Assembly: GCA_019241305.1 (NCBI GenBank)
Contig: JAFAXE010000128.1
Coordinates: 1 to 37,056 of the forward strand
Direction of reading: 5' to 3'
Length of the DNA stretch: 37,056 bases
Source of the DNA: Vulcanimicrobiota bacterium
GTDB lineage: Bacteria; Vulcanimicrobiota; Vulcanimicrobiia; Vulcanimicrobiales; Vulcanimicrobiaceae
Below the pieces are notes generated by a model. The model was given only the letters and a program-made list of their open reading frames with translations, made no database searches and was not told the DNA's origin. Below are positions 4,408 through 35,665 of the stretch, piece after piece (within the stretch, counting starts at the first letter, position 1; each line of letters opens with the position of its first letter). A program made the position numbers and the translations under genes.

Positions 4408-6464
4408 GAAGGCGGTCCTCCCAAGAGTGTGTTTTTAATTGAAGCGGCAAGCGCCGGCGTCATTCCTTTTACGGCGGCAATTTCATCCACACTGGCTTTG
4501 CGTAGCGCGCTGAGCGAGCCGAAGGCATTCAAAAGACGCCGCTTGCGGACCGGTCCCACGCCGGCGAAGGCATCGAGAGCCGAGCGCGTCATCGCTTTAC
4601 CCCTCCGCTTGCGATGATACTCCACCGCGAAACGATGCGCTTCATCGCGGATCCGCATCACCAAATGTAACGCCGCGGAATTCGGAGGAAGCACGATCGG
4701 CTCGGACTGTCCCGGCACGTATAACCATTCATGCTCTTTGGCCAGTCCGGCGACGGGAATGCCCCAAAGGTCCATTTCTTCGAGCACCTCGGCGACCGCG
4801 TTCAACTGCCCTTTTCCGCCGTCGATGAGCAAGAGATCGGGACGGCGATGGAAGCGCTCTTTCCGCTGCACTGCGCGTTCGACCGAGCGTTCTTTGGCCG
4901 CCACCGAGGCGCTATCGGTCTCGCCCGGCGCGTTCGTATCCGCTCGCAGGTACCGCAAGCGCCGGCGCAGCGTCTCTTGCATCATCGCAAAGTCATTCGC
5001 GCCGCTGTCGTACCGGATGCGAAAGCGTCGATAATCGCTCTTCTTTGCGCGCCCTTCGACGAAGACGACCATCGAGGCAACCGGGTTCGTCCCTTGGATA
5101 TTCGAGATGTCGTAGCACTCGATGCGGTGCGGCGGCTCCGGCAAATCCAAGGCCGTCGCGAGTTCCGTCAAGGAGCGGGCTGATGCGGTTTCCTGCAGCT
5201 CCTGGTGCGCAAGGAATGCTTTGAGATTTTGCTCGGCATTCTCGTGTACGAGACGCATATAATCGGCGCGCACCCCGCGCTGGGCGCGCAGGACGCGTAC
5301 CCGTTGGCCTTTCAGCTCGCCCAGCCACGCCTCGATGACCGAGAGGTCGGTCGGCACCGTTTCGACGAGGACTTCTTTCGGAACGGTCGTTTGCGCGGGC
5401 GTTCGCCGAGCCCGAAAGAGACGCGCACGCTCCGTCACTGCGACCGGTACCTCGTTGGCCAGCGATTCACGAAGCGCGAGTGGCGAGAAACCGCTGCCGC
5501 CCGAAACCACCATCCCCGCACGTGCCGTATAAAACTGTTTGAGAAACTCCGAAAGGATTTCCGCCTCAGAGCGCTCGGAGACGCCTTCGACGATGAAGTG
5601 CTCTTGTGCGATGAGCTTTCCGCCGCGGACCAAAAAGACTTGAGCGCAGGCTTGACCTTGCGCGCTCGCCAGCGCGATGAGGTCCATGTCGACGCGGGTA
5701 CCCCAGACCATCTTCTGGCCTTCGGTCACTCGGCGTACCTGCACGATCCGATCGCGCAAGCGCGCTGCTGCTTCGTAGTTCATGCGGTTTGCCGCCTGGG
5801 CCATTTCTGCCTGGAGGCGCTCTAAGAGCCGGTCCTGCCGTCCTTCCAAGAACAGCACGACCTCGTCAACGAGTGCGTCGTACTCAGGTTCGCTCTGGTA
5901 ACCGACGCACGGCGCGAGGCAGCGTTTGATGTGATACTGCAGGCAGGGGCGATGCCGCTTACCGTCGATCGGTTCGCGACACGTCCGGAGCGGGAAAACG
6001 ATGCGGATCAGGTTGATAAGTTCGCGTAAGCCGTGCGCGTTCGTATACGGACCGAAATACCGCGCACCGTCGTCCTTGACGACACGCGTAAAAAGAACAC
6101 GCGAAAACGGCTCGTTCGTTACTTTGAGGTACGGATAGCGCTTGTCGTCGCGCAGCCTAACGTTAAACGGGGGCTGATGCCGTTTGATGAGATTCGACTC
6201 GAGGATCAGCGCCTCGACTTCGTTGTGAACGACGACCGTGCGAACGTCCACCACGCGCTCCACCAGGCGCTGCGTCCGTTCGGGATGCGCAGCGCTGTCC
6301 TGGAAGTAAGAACGCACGCGATTTCGCAGGGAGACCGCTTTGCCGATGTAGAGAATGCGGCCGTTCTCCCCAAGCATCGTGTAGACGCCGGGGGCATCCG
6401 GAATCTGGGCGAGCCGCTCCGCGAGCTTCAAATCCGAGCCGCGCAGCGCGCCGGTGACGGTCAC
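4404..6464 (-). CDS. uvrC: Excinuclease ABC subunit C
   Basis: 686 residues. UvrC makes the two incisions flanking DNA lesions once UvrB is loaded by UvrA. Domains in order: GIY-YIG nuclease (residues ~22-102; GVYTMLGENGRILYIGKAVS) for the 3' cut; a cysteine-rich patch (CREPIDGKRHRPCLQYHIKR); a UVR helical hairpin that binds UvrB (~205-240, NRMNYEAAARLRDRI); the RNase-H-like endonuclease domain (IECYDISNIQGTNPVASMVV, LLIDGGKGQL) for the 5' cut; and a tandem helix-hairpin-helix end (AFAGVGPVRKRRLLNAFG). Length is slightly above the usual ~610, mainly because of an Arg/Glu-rich stretch after DTNAPGETDS. Start GTG at 6464 lacks an obvious Shine-Dalgarno. It lies 51 bases after a DedA gene on the same strand, with a hairpin between. 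Confidence 0.97.
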   Translation of the reverse strand: MTVTGALRGSDLKLAERLAQIPDAPGVYTMLGENGRILYIGKAVSLRNRVRSYFQDSAAHPERTQRLVERVVDVRTVVVHNEVEALILESNLIKRHQPPFNVRLRDDKRYPYLKVTNEPFSRVLFTRVVKDDGARYFGPYTNAHGLRELINLIRIVFPLRTCREPIDGKRHRPCLQYHIKRCLAPCVGYQSEPEYDALVDEVVLFLEGRQDRLLERLQAEMAQAANRMNYEAAARLRDRIVQVRRVTEGQKMVWGTRVDMDLIALASAQGQACAQVFLVRGGKLIAQEHFIVEGVSERSEAEILSEFLKQFYTARAGMVVSGGSGFSPLALRESLANEVPVAVTERARLFRARRTPAQTTVPKEVLVETVPTDLSVIEAWLGELKGQRVRVLRAQRGVRADYMRLVHENAEQNLKAFLAHQELQETASARSLTELATALDLPEPPHRIECYDISNIQGTNPVASMVVFVEGRAKKSDYRRFRIRYDSGANDFAMMQETLRRRLRYLRADTNAPGETDSASVAAKERSVERAVQRKERFHRRPDLLLIDGGKGQLNAVAEVLEEMDLWGIPVAGLAKEHEWLYVPGQSEPIVLPPNSAALHLVMRIRDEAHRFAVEYHRKRRGKAMTRSALDAFAGVGPVRKRRLLNAFGSLSALRKASVDEIAAVKGMTPALAASIKNTLLGGPPS

Positions 6465-6480
6465 GCTAACATAACCCGCA

Positions 6481-6520
6481 AGCGCCTTGCGGCGCTGCAG
6501 CTAGCTGGCCTCCAGCTAGC
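6481..6520 (-). terminator. Tandem hairpins between dedA and uvrC
   Basis: A perfect 9-bp stem with a 3-base loop (GCTAGCTGG at 6500-6508, CCAGCTAGC at 6512-6520) overlaps the DedA stop codon. A second perfect 6-bp stem (6481-6486 with 6491-6496, loop TTGC) follows. No T tract, so rho-independent termination would be weak. Either a terminator of dedA or a processing or stability element before uvrC. Confidence 0.5.
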
Positions 6521-7133
6521 CCGATGCTGCCCCCTTGCGCTCGGTTCGCCGGCGCACAGCGAGATAGACCACGACGATCACGGCGATGGCCAGAACCAGC
6601 AGCGCTGCGGAGCGAATCCACGGGAGCGCCTCGTTCAAATGGTTGCCGAGCGTATATCCGAGTGCGACCAGTCCAAAACAAAAGAGTGCTGAACCTGCCA
6701 AGGTGTAGAGAATGAAGCGGCCCAATTCCATTCGCGAAATGCCCGCGGGGAGTCCGGCGACACCTCGGATGAACGGAATGAATCGACAGAGGAAGACGGT
6801 CCCGTTGCCGTAACGCTCGTAAAAACTGTGGGCGATGTCGAGTTTGTGTAGCGAAAGCCCGACGAGACGTCCCCAGCGCGCGACGAAGGGTCGACCTCCC
6901 CAAAACCCTACCGCATACAAAATCAATTGGCCGGCAAGTTCACCGCAAAGAACGATGAGCGTCGCAAGCCACAAGCTCGAAAGATGTCCTTTGGCGACGA
7001 GGGCGCCGGCGGCGGGGATGACGATCTCGGCACCGATGGGCACGCCGATATTCCCCAGCGCCAAGACCACGAAGAGTGCAACGTACCCTTCACGGTCGAT
7101 GAACTGCAGCAACGAATGTGCGAGGTGTTCCAT
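6516..7133 (-). CDS. DedA family membrane protein
   Basis: 205 residues. The DedA/SNARE-associated (VTT) fold is shown by an N-terminal amphipathic stretch, re-entrant hydrophobic segments with GNIGVPIGAEIVIPAAGALV (the conserved E plus PGE/PxP region), and the signature ERYGNGTVFLCRFIPFIRGV, whose Arg residues are essential in characterised DedA proteins, followed by AGLPAGISRM and C-terminal helices. DedA proteins help maintain the proton motive force and are implicated in recycling undecaprenyl-phosphate or other lipid carriers; which substrate applies here cannot be told. The ATG at 7133 directly abuts the stop codon of the small Clp-N protein gene, so the two are likely co-transcribed. 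Confidence 0.92.
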   Translation of the reverse strand: MEHLAHSLLQFIDREGYVALFVVLALGNIGVPIGAEIVIPAAGALVAKGHLSSLWLATLIVLCGELAGQLILYAVGFWGGRPFVARWGRLVGLSLHKLDIAHSFYERYGNGTVFLCRFIPFIRGVAGLPAGISRMELGRFILYTLAGSALFCFGLVALGYTLGNHLNEALPWIRSAALLVLAIAVIVVVYLAVRRRTERKGAASG

Positions 7134-7520
7134 CTAGCGCGCGACGGCGGCCTGCGAAACGATATCGGCAGCGACGCTGCGGCCTTCGGCACAAATCGCA
7201 TCGAAAAGGTGTACGGGTTCCACGAGGCCTTGGCCGGAGGCTTCTTCCGCAAGGCGGACGATCTGCCGGACGCGGGGGGTCACGAGGATGCCGTCCCACA
7301 AACGCTCGTCGGGAGATCCAACGCGACGCCGAAGTTCCGCTTGCACCTGCGAAACCGCAATGCCGCTGTGCGAGAGTCGCGCTTCGATTGCCGAATCGTG
7401 TTGCTCCAAGAGGGCAAGCAAGAGATGCTCAACGCCCACGTAATAATGGTTGAGGTTGCGGCATTCTTGTTCAGCGACGCGCAAGACGTGCTTGGATGCC
7501 GGACTGAAGCGTGAAAACAA
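7134..7520 (-). CDS. Clp N-terminal-domain-only protein
   Basis: 128 residues consisting only of the double Clp repeat that forms the N-terminal substrate/adaptor-binding domain of ClpC/ClpA/ClpB. Repeat 1 is about residues 3-60 (FSRFSPASKHVLRVAEQECR, then HYYVGVEHLLLALLE) and repeat 2 about 80-125 (VTPRVRQIVRLAEEASGQGL, then EPVHLFDAI). No AAA+ ATPase module follows; the next gene is DedA. I chose the TTG at 7520 because it gives the family's usual MF-xRFs N-terminus. The longer upstream frame runs through the tRNA gene and is rejected. Such stand-alone Clp-N proteins may modulate Clp proteases or bind adaptors or arginine-phosphorylated proteins (inference). It follows tRNA-Pro by 37 bases. 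Confidence 0.82.
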   Translation of the reverse strand: MFSRFSPASKHVLRVAEQECRNLNHYYVGVEHLLLALLEQHDSAIEARLSHSGIAVSQVQAELRRRVGSPDERLWDGILVTPRVRQIVRLAEEASGQGLVEPVHLFDAICAEGRSVAADIVSQAAVAR

Positions 7521-27868: not shown

Positions 27869-27943
27869 GCACAGTGGTACCGCATCGACGCGTCGCTGGC
27901 CTTTGGCATAGAGTCCTCAACCGGGACGGGCTTCACGCGCTTC

Positions 27944-27963
27944 GCGGGGGAGGCTTCCCCCGC
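27944..27963. repeat. Strong GC hairpin upstream of an S53 protease gene
   Basis: GCGGGGG-AGGCTT-CCCCCGC, a perfect 7-bp GC stem with a 6-base loop at 27944-27963, lies about 45 bases before the start of the S53 protease gene. In the leader it could act as an mRNA-structure or attenuation element. Confidence 0.4.
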
Positions 27964-28005
27964 GGCACCGGTAAAGCGCGAACGTATCGGGCGAACCCCG
28001 AGAGA

Positions 28006-29640
28006 ATGGAGAACAGTCCTTTGAAAGTTCACTCTTTGTTAGGAGCGATGCTCCTCTTGAGTGCGGTCATCGTCGTCCCCCCACTTGCCGCACCTGCTCG
28101 CGCTGCCACGCTCGTGGACGGAGTCGTGCGCGCGGACGTGCGAGATCTCGGCAGAGCCGATGCGCGCATGCCGGTATCCTTTACCGTTGGCCTACGCTAC
28201 CGTCACGAAGCCGAACTGGAACGACTCGTCGAAGCGCAGACAAATCGCAATTCCCCCCTCTACCGACAGTTCTTGAGCAACGCACAATTCAACGATTACT
28301 TTGCACCGGCGACGGGCGACTATGCCCGCGTCGTTTTATCGTTGCGGCGGGCGGGGTTCGCGGTGGCGATCTCCGACAACCGGACGACCGTTCGGGCGAC
28401 GGGAACGACCGGAGCGGCGGAACGATACTTCACCGCGGAGATTCATCGGGTCGTACAAGCGGGTTACGGCATCCGTTATGGGAACGTGCGGACCGCGCTG
28501 ATTCCACGACAGATCGCCGACGTAGCCGATGTCGTGATTGGGCTCAACAATCTTCACGCGGCGACTCCCGACCATTTCTTCGTGCCGGCGTCTCGCGTGC
28601 GTCCTGATAAACTTCACGGCCCGCTGCTTGGCCCGAACGGCGGATACGGGCCGTTCGCGATTGCGCAGGCCTACGACTATCCCGTCCAACACGGTTTTGA
28701 CGGAAAAGGGCACGCCGTTGCGATCGCCATCGACTACGACTCGTCGGATAGCGACCTCGCGGCGTTCACGAAATTTTTCAACGTCAAGAGAACGGGGAAG
28801 ACGTTCCATGTCCCCGTCGATGGCGGCCAGCCGTACGACCCCAACGGCAGCGTGGAATCCACGCTCGACACCGAGACGGTGGGCAGCCTCGATCCCGGCG
28901 CTGACATGTACGTCTACAATTTTGGTGCAGCTTTCACGTTCCAAGAGATCAGCGACGCCTACAATAAGGCCGTCTCCGACAATAAGGTCGATGATGTGAG
29001 CTCGAGTTTCGGCCTGTGCGAGGACGACTCCCCACGAAGCTTCAACACCCTGGTCAACAAAATCACGAAGCAAGGTGCCGCCAAGGGCATCACGTTCAAC
29101 GCAAGCACCGGCGATTTTGGCCGCGGCGGGAAATGTTCTGATGGAACCGGACAAGACGTGCCGGCCGTGCTAACGTATTTCATTTCGGTGGGCGGTGCCG
29201 ACCCGAACATCGACAGCCACGGCAAGCTTGTCAGTGAAAACGAGGACTCGGGTTCCGGTGGCGGTCCTTCGGATATCTTCAAAATCCCCAGCTACCAGAA
29301 GGGCTTGCCCGGAATCTTCTCGACGACGAAGCGCAACATTCCCGACGTGTCGGGACCGTACTTGCCCGATGCGTTTTACATCAACGGGCAGTGGGGTCAA
29401 ATCGGCGGTACCTCGTGGGCATCGCCGGCGACGGCCGCCTTCATCGCTCAAGCGAACCAGGTTGACGGCAAGCGCCTCGGGTTTGCGAACCCGCACATCT
29501 ACGCCGCCTTCAAGGCGAACGGCTATAAGGACTTCAACGACGTGACGGTCGGTAACAACGGTATTGCATGCACGACGGGCTACGACGATTGCAGCGGTAT
29601 CGGGACGCTCAAAGGCTTCCCCCTCGCCGGCGCGCTCTAA
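28006..29640 (+). CDS. Secreted S53 (kumamolisin/sedolisin-type) serine-carboxyl protease
   Basis: 544 residues from ATG 28006; a TTG at 28021 with GGAG nine bases upstream is an equally good start and yields a clean Sec signal (MKVHSLLGAMLLLSAVIVVP, cleavage after ARA). Propeptide (~45-185): PVSFTVGLRYRHEAELERLV, SPLYRQFLSNAQFNDYFAP (pro-kumamolisin activation domain). Catalytic domain (~210-544): E284 and D288 in SVESTLDTETVG, D370 in FNASTGDFGRG (oxyanion hole), nucleophile S470 in GTSWASPATAA, and a Ca2+ site in the terminal GYDDCSGIGT. S53 enzymes are subtilisin-fold endopeptidases usually acting at acidic pH. It is followed by a strong bidirectional terminator. Confidence 0.93.
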   Translation: MENSPLKVHSLLGAMLLLSAVIVVPPLAAPARAATLVDGVVRADVRDLGRADARMPVSFTVGLRYRHEAELERLVEAQTNRNSPLYRQFLSNAQFNDYFAPATGDYARVVLSLRRAGFAVAISDNRTTVRATGTTGAAERYFTAEIHRVVQAGYGIRYGNVRTALIPRQIADVADVVIGLNNLHAATPDHFFVPASRVRPDKLHGPLLGPNGGYGPFAIAQAYDYPVQHGFDGKGHAVAIAIDYDSSDSDLAAFTKFFNVKRTGKTFHVPVDGGQPYDPNGSVESTLDTETVGSLDPGADMYVYNFGAAFTFQEISDAYNKAVSDNKVDDVSSSFGLCEDDSPRSFNTLVNKITKQGAAKGITFNASTGDFGRGGKCSDGTGQDVPAVLTYFISVGGADPNIDSHGKLVSENEDSGSGGGPSDIFKIPSYQKGLPGIFSTTKRNIPDVSGPYLPDAFYINGQWGQIGGTSWASPATAAFIAQANQVDGKRLGFANPHIYAAFKANGYKDFNDVTVGNNGIACTTGYDDCSGIGTLKGFPLAGAL

Positions 29641-33276: not shown

Positions 33277-35538
33277 CTACTCGATGCGCGAGAGGTAGAA
33301 CGCGTTCGCCGATCCTATACCGGTGACGTTGTCGTAACCAGGACCCGCTGTGAACGGTCCGTTCGAGCCGCTCGTCACGTCGTGGAATCCCCAGTCGCCG
33401 TTGTAATAGTACTGAGTAATCCAGGCGCCGTAGAGGGCGGGATGTACGTCTCCAGCGAGATCTTCTTCGCGGTGATTCACCTCGACTTGCACCGCGCAGA
33501 AGATTGGTGAGGAGACGGACGTACCCCAGGTGTACCACCATTGTCCGCCTGAGTACACGCTCACGGGCGTCTTGTCGCTTCCGTTGAAGGCGATGTCCGG
33601 CGTGTTTCGTCCCGTGCTCGACAGGAACCATTGCTGCCAGTAGGGCTCCGGGAAGTGTGGTGAGACACCACCGCCGCTGCCGGACCAACCGACTTCGTGC
33701 GAATAGCCGGCGTGCCCGTTGATATAGAGGCTCGTTGCGGCCACCGAAACGAAGTAAGGATCGCTCGACGGTACCTCGATTTCGCCGTTGCAGCCATTGC
33801 CGCCGCCATCCCCACTGGACGCACTAAACGTCATCCCATAGGCCGCGCCCTGCATCGCGATCTGGTTCGTTTGATCCCCAAACCAGTCGCTACACCCGGC
33901 GAAACTCGAGTTCACGAGTTCGGGGGAAGCGTTGGAGACCAGGTAGTTGTACGCGTCCAGGATGTGCGTGAAGCTCAGATCCGGGATCGTATAGATCGTG
34001 AGGTCGACGCCGGGCGCAAGCGACGCAATCATTTCCACGTCGAGATGCGGCTCCAGTTGGTCACCGCCAGGGGGACCATCGATGTTCACGTGATGGTAGA
34101 GCCAACTGTAGCGCGTGATTCCGAACTGACTCAGGTAGGTGTTGAGGTCCGCATCTGGGACGTCGCCGTCGATGACCACGCCCGCGGAGTGGCCCGTGCC
34201 ATCCCAACCGTGCTGTACCCCCATGTCGTAGGCAGACGCCAAGCCGTACGGGCTGAAGCCTGCGGGACCGTAGGGCGAACCCGTGAGAGCCTTGCCGCGC
34301 CCACCGGCATAGTCGTAGATCGAGACGTCATCGAGGAAGGCGTACCGGAGCGCATTCGCGCCCGTTCCGGTCACGCCGAGATAGATCCAAATGGGATGTC
34401 CAGCGAAGAAGCTCATGTCCACGGCGAAGTTCTGCCATCCTAGCGGCGCTTGGCCCGTCTTCGTGGATTGTTGATACGGGAACTGATAGAACTTGCCGCG
34501 GGTGTAGTCGTATACGTAAGCCACCGTGAATTTCGCGGGGTCACTATTGACGAGGTAGGCCCACCACGTCATTTCGGCCAGGTTCGGCGTCGCACTGAAG
34601 TACTGGCAGACCATCGAATAGCCGTTGACTTCCTGTGAGCCGGCGCCCGCAAGGACCGAATACGAGCCGGTGTGCGCGTACGTGCTGATGCTGACGGGAT
34701 CCGTTCCGCCACAATCAACCCACGGTCCCGAGAGCGAACCCGATTCGAAGCCGGGGTCTTGCACGTAGTTCGACCCGAACGGAAACCCGTAGTTTGGGTT
34801 GACGCGCTGCGCGCGCGTTTTCGGGCGAGGCAGAAGATGCGCGCGGAGGTGCGCTTCCGTCCTGGCGTCGACCGGTTGCGGCGGAATTGCGTGCGGCCGT
34901 GCGGTGCCGCCGCCGTCGCGGCGAAGGAGCGGCGGTGGCGCCACGCGGGCGTGCGAGGTCGCGTGCACCTCAATCACGTTGCTCAAACCCGCGACGCTTC
35001 GAACGACGCCCTGCAGGCTTGCCGGCATGAGTGCCGCGCGCACGTTCATGTAGCGGATGCCGTAGTGGCTCTGCGCGACGGTGTGGATCGTCGTGTTGAA
35101 GAACCGCTCAACGACCGCAACCGGTGCGGCGGCGTCGATGATCGTGCGGTTCGCGAACGTCTTGGTGATCGTGAAGCCGGCGGCGCGCAGGGTCGCGATC
35201 ACCTTGGCGTGGTCCTGCGCGGCCGGCGCAAAGGTCGCGATGAATTGTTGCCGCGTGATCCAGCGATGGTACAGCGGCGAGTGACGATCCGATTGAGCCC
35301 TGACGAGGGCCTCGAGTTTCGCCTGCTGCCGGTACTCCAGCACAAACGCGAGATTCGCGCGCGTGGTGGGTGCAACGCGACCAAGATCGCGGACGTCGCG
35401 CGCGTTGGGAAGACCAGCGGCCAGGTTGCTCGGAAGGGGCATTGCCGATGCCGGAGTTGCGCTGAGCGCGGCACAGAGCAGGCCGGCGGTGAGGAGCCCG
35501 GCGGCACCGATTCGGCCGGCGGGCGCGTACGTCATCAT
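33277..35538 (-). CDS. Secreted S53 protease with an inserted lectin-like module
   Basis: 753 residues. Sec signal (~1-32, cleavage after TPASA). Propeptide (~35-200; PLYHRWITRQQFIATFAPAA). A region of ~150 residues (about 258-410) not found in ordinary kumamolisins, opening DPGFESGSLSGPWVDCGGTD and closing RYAFLDDVSIYDYAGGRG, looks like a beta-jelly-roll carbohydrate-binding or lectin module. The catalytic domain (~415-753) has E496 and D500 (LEPHLDVEMI), D577 (FSASSGDGGG), S674 (GTSVSSPIF) and Ca2+ site GPGYDNVTGIGS. All catalytic residues are present. ATG 35538 has GGAGA about seven bases upstream; the next codon is also ATG. It is a paralogue of the S53 protease at 28006, but much longer. 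Confidence 0.9.
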   Translation of the reverse strand: MMTYAPAGRIGAAGLLTAGLLCAALSATPASAMPLPSNLAAGLPNARDVRDLGRVAPTTRANLAFVLEYRQQAKLEALVRAQSDRHSPLYHRWITRQQFIATFAPAAQDHAKVIATLRAAGFTITKTFANRTIIDAAAPVAVVERFFNTTIHTVAQSHYGIRYMNVRAALMPASLQGVVRSVAGLSNVIEVHATSHARVAPPPLLRRDGGGTARPHAIPPQPVDARTEAHLRAHLLPRPKTRAQRVNPNYGFPFGSNYVQDPGFESGSLSGPWVDCGGTDPVSISTYAHTGSYSVLAGAGSQEVNGYSMVCQYFSATPNLAEMTWWAYLVNSDPAKFTVAYVYDYTRGKFYQFPYQQSTKTGQAPLGWQNFAVDMSFFAGHPIWIYLGVTGTGANALRYAFLDDVSIYDYAGGRGKALTGSPYGPAGFSPYGLASAYDMGVQHGWDGTGHSAGVVIDGDVPDADLNTYLSQFGITRYSWLYHHVNIDGPPGGDQLEPHLDVEMIASLAPGVDLTIYTIPDLSFTHILDAYNYLVSNASPELVNSSFAGCSDWFGDQTNQIAMQGAAYGMTFSASSGDGGGNGCNGEIEVPSSDPYFVSVAATSLYINGHAGYSHEVGWSGSGGGVSPHFPEPYWQQWFLSSTGRNTPDIAFNGSDKTPVSVYSGGQWWYTWGTSVSSPIFCAVQVEVNHREEDLAGDVHPALYGAWITQYYYNGDWGFHDVTSGSNGPFTAGPGYDNVTGIGSANAFYLSRIE

Positions 35539-35569
35539 GGGAGCGTCTCCATTTTGTGGTTGTGAGATG

Positions 35570-35602
35570 GAGCGCCGCCGACAGGAACCTGAGGCGGCGC
35601 TC
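35570..35602. repeat. Inverted repeat in the S53 gene leader
   Basis: GAGCGCCGCC (35570-35579) and GGCGGCGCTC (35593-35602) form a perfect 10-bp GC stem with a 13-base loop in the 127-base gap upstream of the S53 gene. The minus strand after it is not T-rich, so it is more likely a leader hairpin than a terminator of the upstream regulator gene. Confidence 0.45.
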
Positions 35603-35665
35603 GATGCCGGCATCGTAGGGTGAGGCCGTCCCACAAGCGTCCCGCGGCGAGGAACGATCCGGGTC

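Follow-up and report, generated by a model that had tools for sequence, protein, structure and literature searches.

A predicted secreted S53 protease whose prodomain and catalytic domain are separated by a CBM-like jelly-roll module

Results

An S53 protease gene with a long interdomain gap

We analysed a 37,056-nucleotide stretch of bacterial DNA (the window) that carries two S53 protease genes. The first lies in an open reading frame spanning 33277-35634 on the minus strand, with a Shine-Dalgarno-like GGAG 8 nt 5' of an ATG at 35538. Residue numbers follow the 785-codon reading frame that begins at GTG 35634; subtracting 32 gives the numbering of an initial annotation of this DNA. The features of the locus are as follows.

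33277-35538, minus strand: S53 protease coding sequence, 753 aa from ATG 35538, stop codon at 33277-33279 (open reading frame and Shine-Dalgarno-like GGAG)
35443-35538, minus strand: predicted signal peptide, residues 33-64, ...ATPASA^MP (sequence reading)
34978-35394, minus strand: prodomain, Pro-kuma_activ (PF09286), residues 81-219 (Pfam, E=1.1e-24)
34771-34977, minus strand: prodomain-module linker, basic and Pro-rich, 10 K/R per 66 aa, the probable favoured zone of activation cleavage
34318-34770, minus strand: inserted jelly-roll module, CBM_4_9/CBM61-like, residues 289-439 (profile match 2e-38, AlphaFold2 pLDDT 87.4, Foldseek)
34273-34317, minus strand: module-catalytic linker, short, lacking the Pro/Thr linker of relatives
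33280-34272, minus strand: S53 catalytic domain, residues 455-785 (alignment to kumamolisin-As)
34051-34053, 34039-34041, 33808-33810 and 33517-33519, minus strand: catalytic residues E528, D532, D609 and S706, respectively
27874-29640, plus strand: second S53 protease, 588 aa, without the module (Pfam, tree), with its nearest relatives (82%) belonging to another family within the class

S53 sedolisins are acid-active, pepstatin-insensitive, Ca2+-dependent endopeptidases, usually described as a prodomain followed by a catalytic domain. Their hallmarks are a Ser-Glu-Asp triad and an oxyanion Asp in a subtilisin-like fold, together with a large N-terminal Pro-kuma_activ prodomain. Both are present in the window protein, the triad and oxyanion Asp by alignment and the prodomain by Pfam. 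The catalytic domain (about residues 455-785) aligned with kumamolisin-As over almost its full length (E=5e-25), and the same alignment identified a C-terminal Ca2+-site motif (D752-V753...D768). The initial annotation had described all catalytic residues as intact, and this was borne out: E528, D532, D609 and S706 correspond to the catalytic Glu, the catalytic Asp, the oxyanion Asp and the Ser, and are invariant among the aligned relatives. Reading from the alignment, E620 sits opposite Asp179 of kumamolisin-As, the residue to which that enzyme owes its preference for Arg at P1 (PMC11294657). On these sequence features, the gene encodes a predicted secreted S53 endopeptidase of the sedolisin/kumamolisin type.

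The insert is a domain with a CBM-type fold

Approximately 230 residues separate prodomain and catalytic domain in the window protein, comprising the basic linker, a domain at residues 289-439 and the short second linker. The initial annotation had proposed about 150 extra residues here, and the domain delimited in this work (257-407 in its numbering) lies close to where it had placed them. When checked against the propeptide and the normal S53 fold, the region proved to be part of neither. A profile built from homologues of the module matched the window insert at 2e-38, and AlphaFold2, run with 38 sequences, returned a nine-strand jelly roll (pLDDT 87.4). Together with the contrast in gap length with module-less S53s described below, the profile match and the confident fold indicate that the insert is a true domain, beyond chance.

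Searching the PDB with this model using Foldseek ranked CBM61 first (TM 0.69) and CBM16 next (0.63), with E values of about 1e-8; below these came a porphyran-binding CBM, CBM22 and CBM4 and, further down, gingipain adhesin and meprin domains. A profile search of PDB sequences likewise placed CBM61 first (8e-5). Pfam CBM_4_9 matched the window module alone at E=0.0099 (16.7 bits, under the cut-off of 25.9), and reached E<=0.01 in 22 of 47 module homologues, some of them above the cut-off; sub-threshold InhA-like_MAM matches were also found in 22 of the 47. The initial guess of a CBM-like module stands at the level of fold (CBM61 and CBM16 by Foldseek), while the Pfam match of the window module by itself falls short of the cut-off. 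That the module adopts a CBM-type jelly roll is well supported by the predicted structure, from which we infer that it may bind glycan; jelly rolls of such fold can also bind protein or merely stabilise.

The module occupies one slot in S53 proteases of a single family

Homologues of the insert alone were found in 53 of 149 genomes of the phylum, and the module profile matched 58 of 148, all from the window's own Eremiobacterota family. Among 94 S53 catalytic domains gathered from the phylum, 39 are accompanied by the module; these module-bearing proteases come from at least 33 genomes and 19 genera of that one family, and the module always occupies the slot between prodomain and catalytic domain. 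In S53s of the phylum with an upstream prodomain, the gap to the catalytic domain spans 218-318 aa in module-bearing proteins but 17-90 aa in the others, and no other type of insert was seen in gaps exceeding 200 aa among the 94 domains. The architecture, which the initial annotation had expected to be unusual, is thus not peculiar to the window gene and is common in its bacterial family.

Module-bearing S53s usually comprise a lipobox (32/38), the prodomain, a basic linker, the module, a Pro/Thr linker of ~50-100 aa and the catalytic domain. The main clade is further marked by a pair of co-occurring Cys residues, one in the catalytic domain and the other where the Pro/Thr linker ends. The window protein lacks the Pro/Thr linker and both Cys residues, and carries a predicted Sec-type signal peptide without the lipobox of these relatives.

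Within the same family, the module also occurs outside S53s, stand-alone, as part of apparent lipoproteins or N-terminal to a PF04185 phosphoesterase (L016:130-2250:-, L030:220-2151:- and L067:2857-4875:+). The apparent lipoproteins are abundant, and in them the module is followed by a Pro/Thr linker and then a conserved domain at the C-terminus (L003:1000-2148:-, L006:961-2172:-, L014:1261-2574:+ and similar); this last domain, CGxVTQVL...HGYFYV...WPWVAVGDYVYVQGRYYYD, has no Pfam match. Sampling the reach of the module outside the phylum recovered distant homologues at the C-terminus of M4 metalloproteases from Embleya and Streptomyces, and a distant match in Kitasatospora falls under a gene annotated as M4. 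Three such C-terminal homologues on actinomycete M4 metalloproteases (L218, L219 and L220) are located on large linear plasmids. Of 13 records of plasmid-borne S53s, none spans 80% of the query. The module is a general extracellular accessory domain.

Modules diverge between near-identical enzymes

Comparison of 666 S53 pairs revealed that, at 80-90% catalytic identity, module identity ranges from 21 to 90%. The tandem S53s of a single genome, L055 (1843-4305:- and 4459-7167:-), share 95% identity in the prodomain and 92% in the catalytic domain, as against 40% in the module; the corresponding DNA identities are 96.7, 93.6 and 60.0%. Their modules fall in different well-supported clades of the module tree, and an AU test rejected grouping of the L055 modules with the catalytic clade (p=0.00027). 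Such divergence beside near-identical partners suggests cassette exchange, in which L055 modules would have been replaced while the slot stayed the same; exceptionally rapid divergence of the module alone could also explain the tandem pair but is less likely.

Most module-bearing S53s cluster in a single clade of the catalytic-domain tree, the window enzyme and L020 being placed outside it among module-less S53s. AU testing did not reject one origin of the insert for the window enzyme and the others (p=0.08-0.16; 0.08 for all together), and a separate gain of the window insert, as judged from these trees, is therefore only favoured. The window copy is the most diverged in the module tree, on a branch of 1.68 and with no sure sister, and the modules most similar to it (about 40%) are found in stand-alone lipoproteins. 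Two S53s, L164:313-2883:- and L170:1524-3413:+, have prodomain, Pro/Thr linker and catalytic domain without the module, and are likely to represent module loss within the module-bearing clade.

It is possible, and we put this forward tentatively, that the S53 pro-catalytic linker in this family acts as a recombination site at which glycan-binding-type cassettes are swapped, repeatedly retargeting one scaffold, with the window gene a separate acquisition on another S53 lineage.

A set of S53s nested within the module-bearing clade (L198-L209, for example L200:1911-4535:-, L198:1906-4497:- and L204:1767-4376:+) carries Pro-kuma_activ C-terminal to the catalytic domain in all 12 examined. This prodomain lacks about profile positions 21-57 of 141, and the N-termini are occupied by other domains, with tectonin-like repeats visible by eye in some and something different in L204. 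To our knowledge, no other S53 has this permuted order.

The neighbouring S53 is a distant homologue

The initial annotation had also noted a shorter paralogue nearby. A module-less S53 is indeed present 3.6 kb away (27874-29640), with 30 residues between prodomain and catalytic domain, but it is neither a recent sister nor the source of the module: the tree and a catalytic identity of 41% rule out a recently duplicated module-less sister and identify a distant homologue. It groups solely with S53s of another family, f3 (82% identical). A nearby Der gene, by contrast, shows 71% identity within its own family and about 55% with f3, so transfer of this S53 between families is probable. Since Der groups with its own family, contamination of the contig from another family is unsupported.

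The genome itself (2.8 Mb) is rich in S53s, with eight Pro-kuma_activ matches on contigs C1, C7, C93, C153, C167 and C169, the module being confined to the window copy; matches to Pro-kuma_activ occurred in just 1 of 14 control genomes. A scan of genome contigs with the whole protein gave no match.

Basic residues lie mainly before the module

Zymogen activation of known sedolisins, which takes place at low pH, removes the linker (PMC6278154). The slot lies within this linker, so a cut on one side would keep the module on the enzyme and a cut on the other would lose it. K and R occur at a density of 0.110 per residue before the module, in the linker to the prodomain, and of 0.021 after it, in the linker to the catalytic domain; the density before the module is the greater in 37 of 38 proteins; the window module-catalytic linker has one Arg and one Lys. 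We also examined a Pro-Arg/Lys cleavage motif in the prodomain-module linker, which showed no enrichment (8/38 against a shuffled mean of 14.3). The full-length model (pLDDT 52) was too poor to show how the domains pack. The position of the basic residues, mainly before the module, together with Glu620 at the Asp179 position, suggests that cleavage would occur mainly before the module, which would then be retained.

Discussion

The best explanation overall, in our judgement about evenly poised between right and wrong, is that a CBM-like domain has been spliced into the prodomain-catalytic linker of an S53 protease, where it is retained and serves in targeting. The enzyme would be exported, after which autolysis in the basic prodomain-module linker would remove the prodomain and leave the module at the N-terminus of the mature protease. 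CBMs remain attached to glycanases; by analogy, a retained module could anchor the protease on a glycosylated surface or an extracellular polymer, raising local activity on the substrate there. In the relatives, the slot would act as a cassette site at which modules are exchanged without loss of the flanking prodomain and catalytic domain, thereby diversifying targeting.

The same position is open to a different fate. Were the cut to fall beside the catalytic domain, the module would leave with or after the prodomain, ending up free or membrane-bound, and the protease would be a simple S53. Linker removal on sedolisin maturation (PMC6278154) could equally free the module, the lipobox upstream of the prodomain in most relatives means that prodomain and module could remain on the cell, and stand-alone module lipoproteins exist. 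Against such release, the basic residues are N-terminal of the module, and the co-occurrence of the main-clade Cys pair suggests that the mature enzyme includes the end of the Pro/Thr linker; we consider release unlikely.

Similarly improbable, in our estimate, is that the module aids folding, stability or autoactivation without binding glycan, as in the beta-jelly-roll domains of S8 proteases: KP-43 prodomain cleavage and TSS folding and stability depend on these, and the myroicolsin domain shows no collagen binding (PMC11294657). The short module-catalytic linker of the window protein would permit the close packing that suits this role. However, L164 and L170 keep the remaining architecture without a module, modules down to 40% identity sit beside near-constant partners, and the module is found by itself and on phosphoesterases too, which together argue against a dedicated folding interface. 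Finally, a protein-protein or surface adhesion domain of the MAM or cleaved-adhesin type, targeting proteins rather than sugars, would account for the InhA-like_MAM matches, for the gingipain adhesin and meprin domains among the Foldseek matches and for the homologous C-terminal modules of actinomycete M4 proteases. We regard this as the least probable account, given that the top structural and Pfam matches are to CBM61, CBM16 and CBM_4_9.

A module at the activation-cleavage site, apparently exchanged between near-identical enzymes, would provide a natural set for testing protease retargeting by module swap. It suggests a way in which these bacteria may steer proteolysis to particular biomass, and the slot could be used to engineer targeted acid proteases.

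CBMs on proteases and the S53 fold are already known; the slot in S53 is what we did not find described, literature searches of incomplete coverage having yielded no account of an S53 whose pro-catalytic linker holds a CBM-like domain, or of cassette exchange at that position. The closest enzymes, kumamolisin and kumamolisin-As, share the prodomain family, catalytic fold, Glu/Asp/Asp/Ser residues and an acidic S1 residue at the Asp179 position, but kumamolisin-As carries no binding domain beside its catalytic domain (PMC11294657), and a short linker stands in place of the 150-aa domain. CSI1 of fungal endosedolisins is likewise an insert at the S53 prodomain/linker, but is about 28 residues, loop-like and thought to be removed on maturation (PMC6278154). 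The Thermotoga CBM61 (2xom) and CBM16 (2zew, 3oea) resemble the module in predicted fold, at ~20% identity, and the module is carried by a protease rather than a glycanase. Mep72, a secreted Pseudomonas aeruginosa metzincin with CBM-like domains whose autoproteolysis is slowed by alginate (PMC4334185), differs in being a metalloprotease whose CBMs are C-terminal and in lacking a prodomain slot. M60-like and other MEROPS peptidases also combine a protease with a glycan-binding domain (CBM32 or CBM5_12), and a targeting function has been proposed for the CBM-bearing M60-like proteases; the CBM families and positions differ, and S53 is absent from the CBM32 table quoted there (PMC3267712). With the architecture described here, S53 would become a further peptidase family in which such modules are known.
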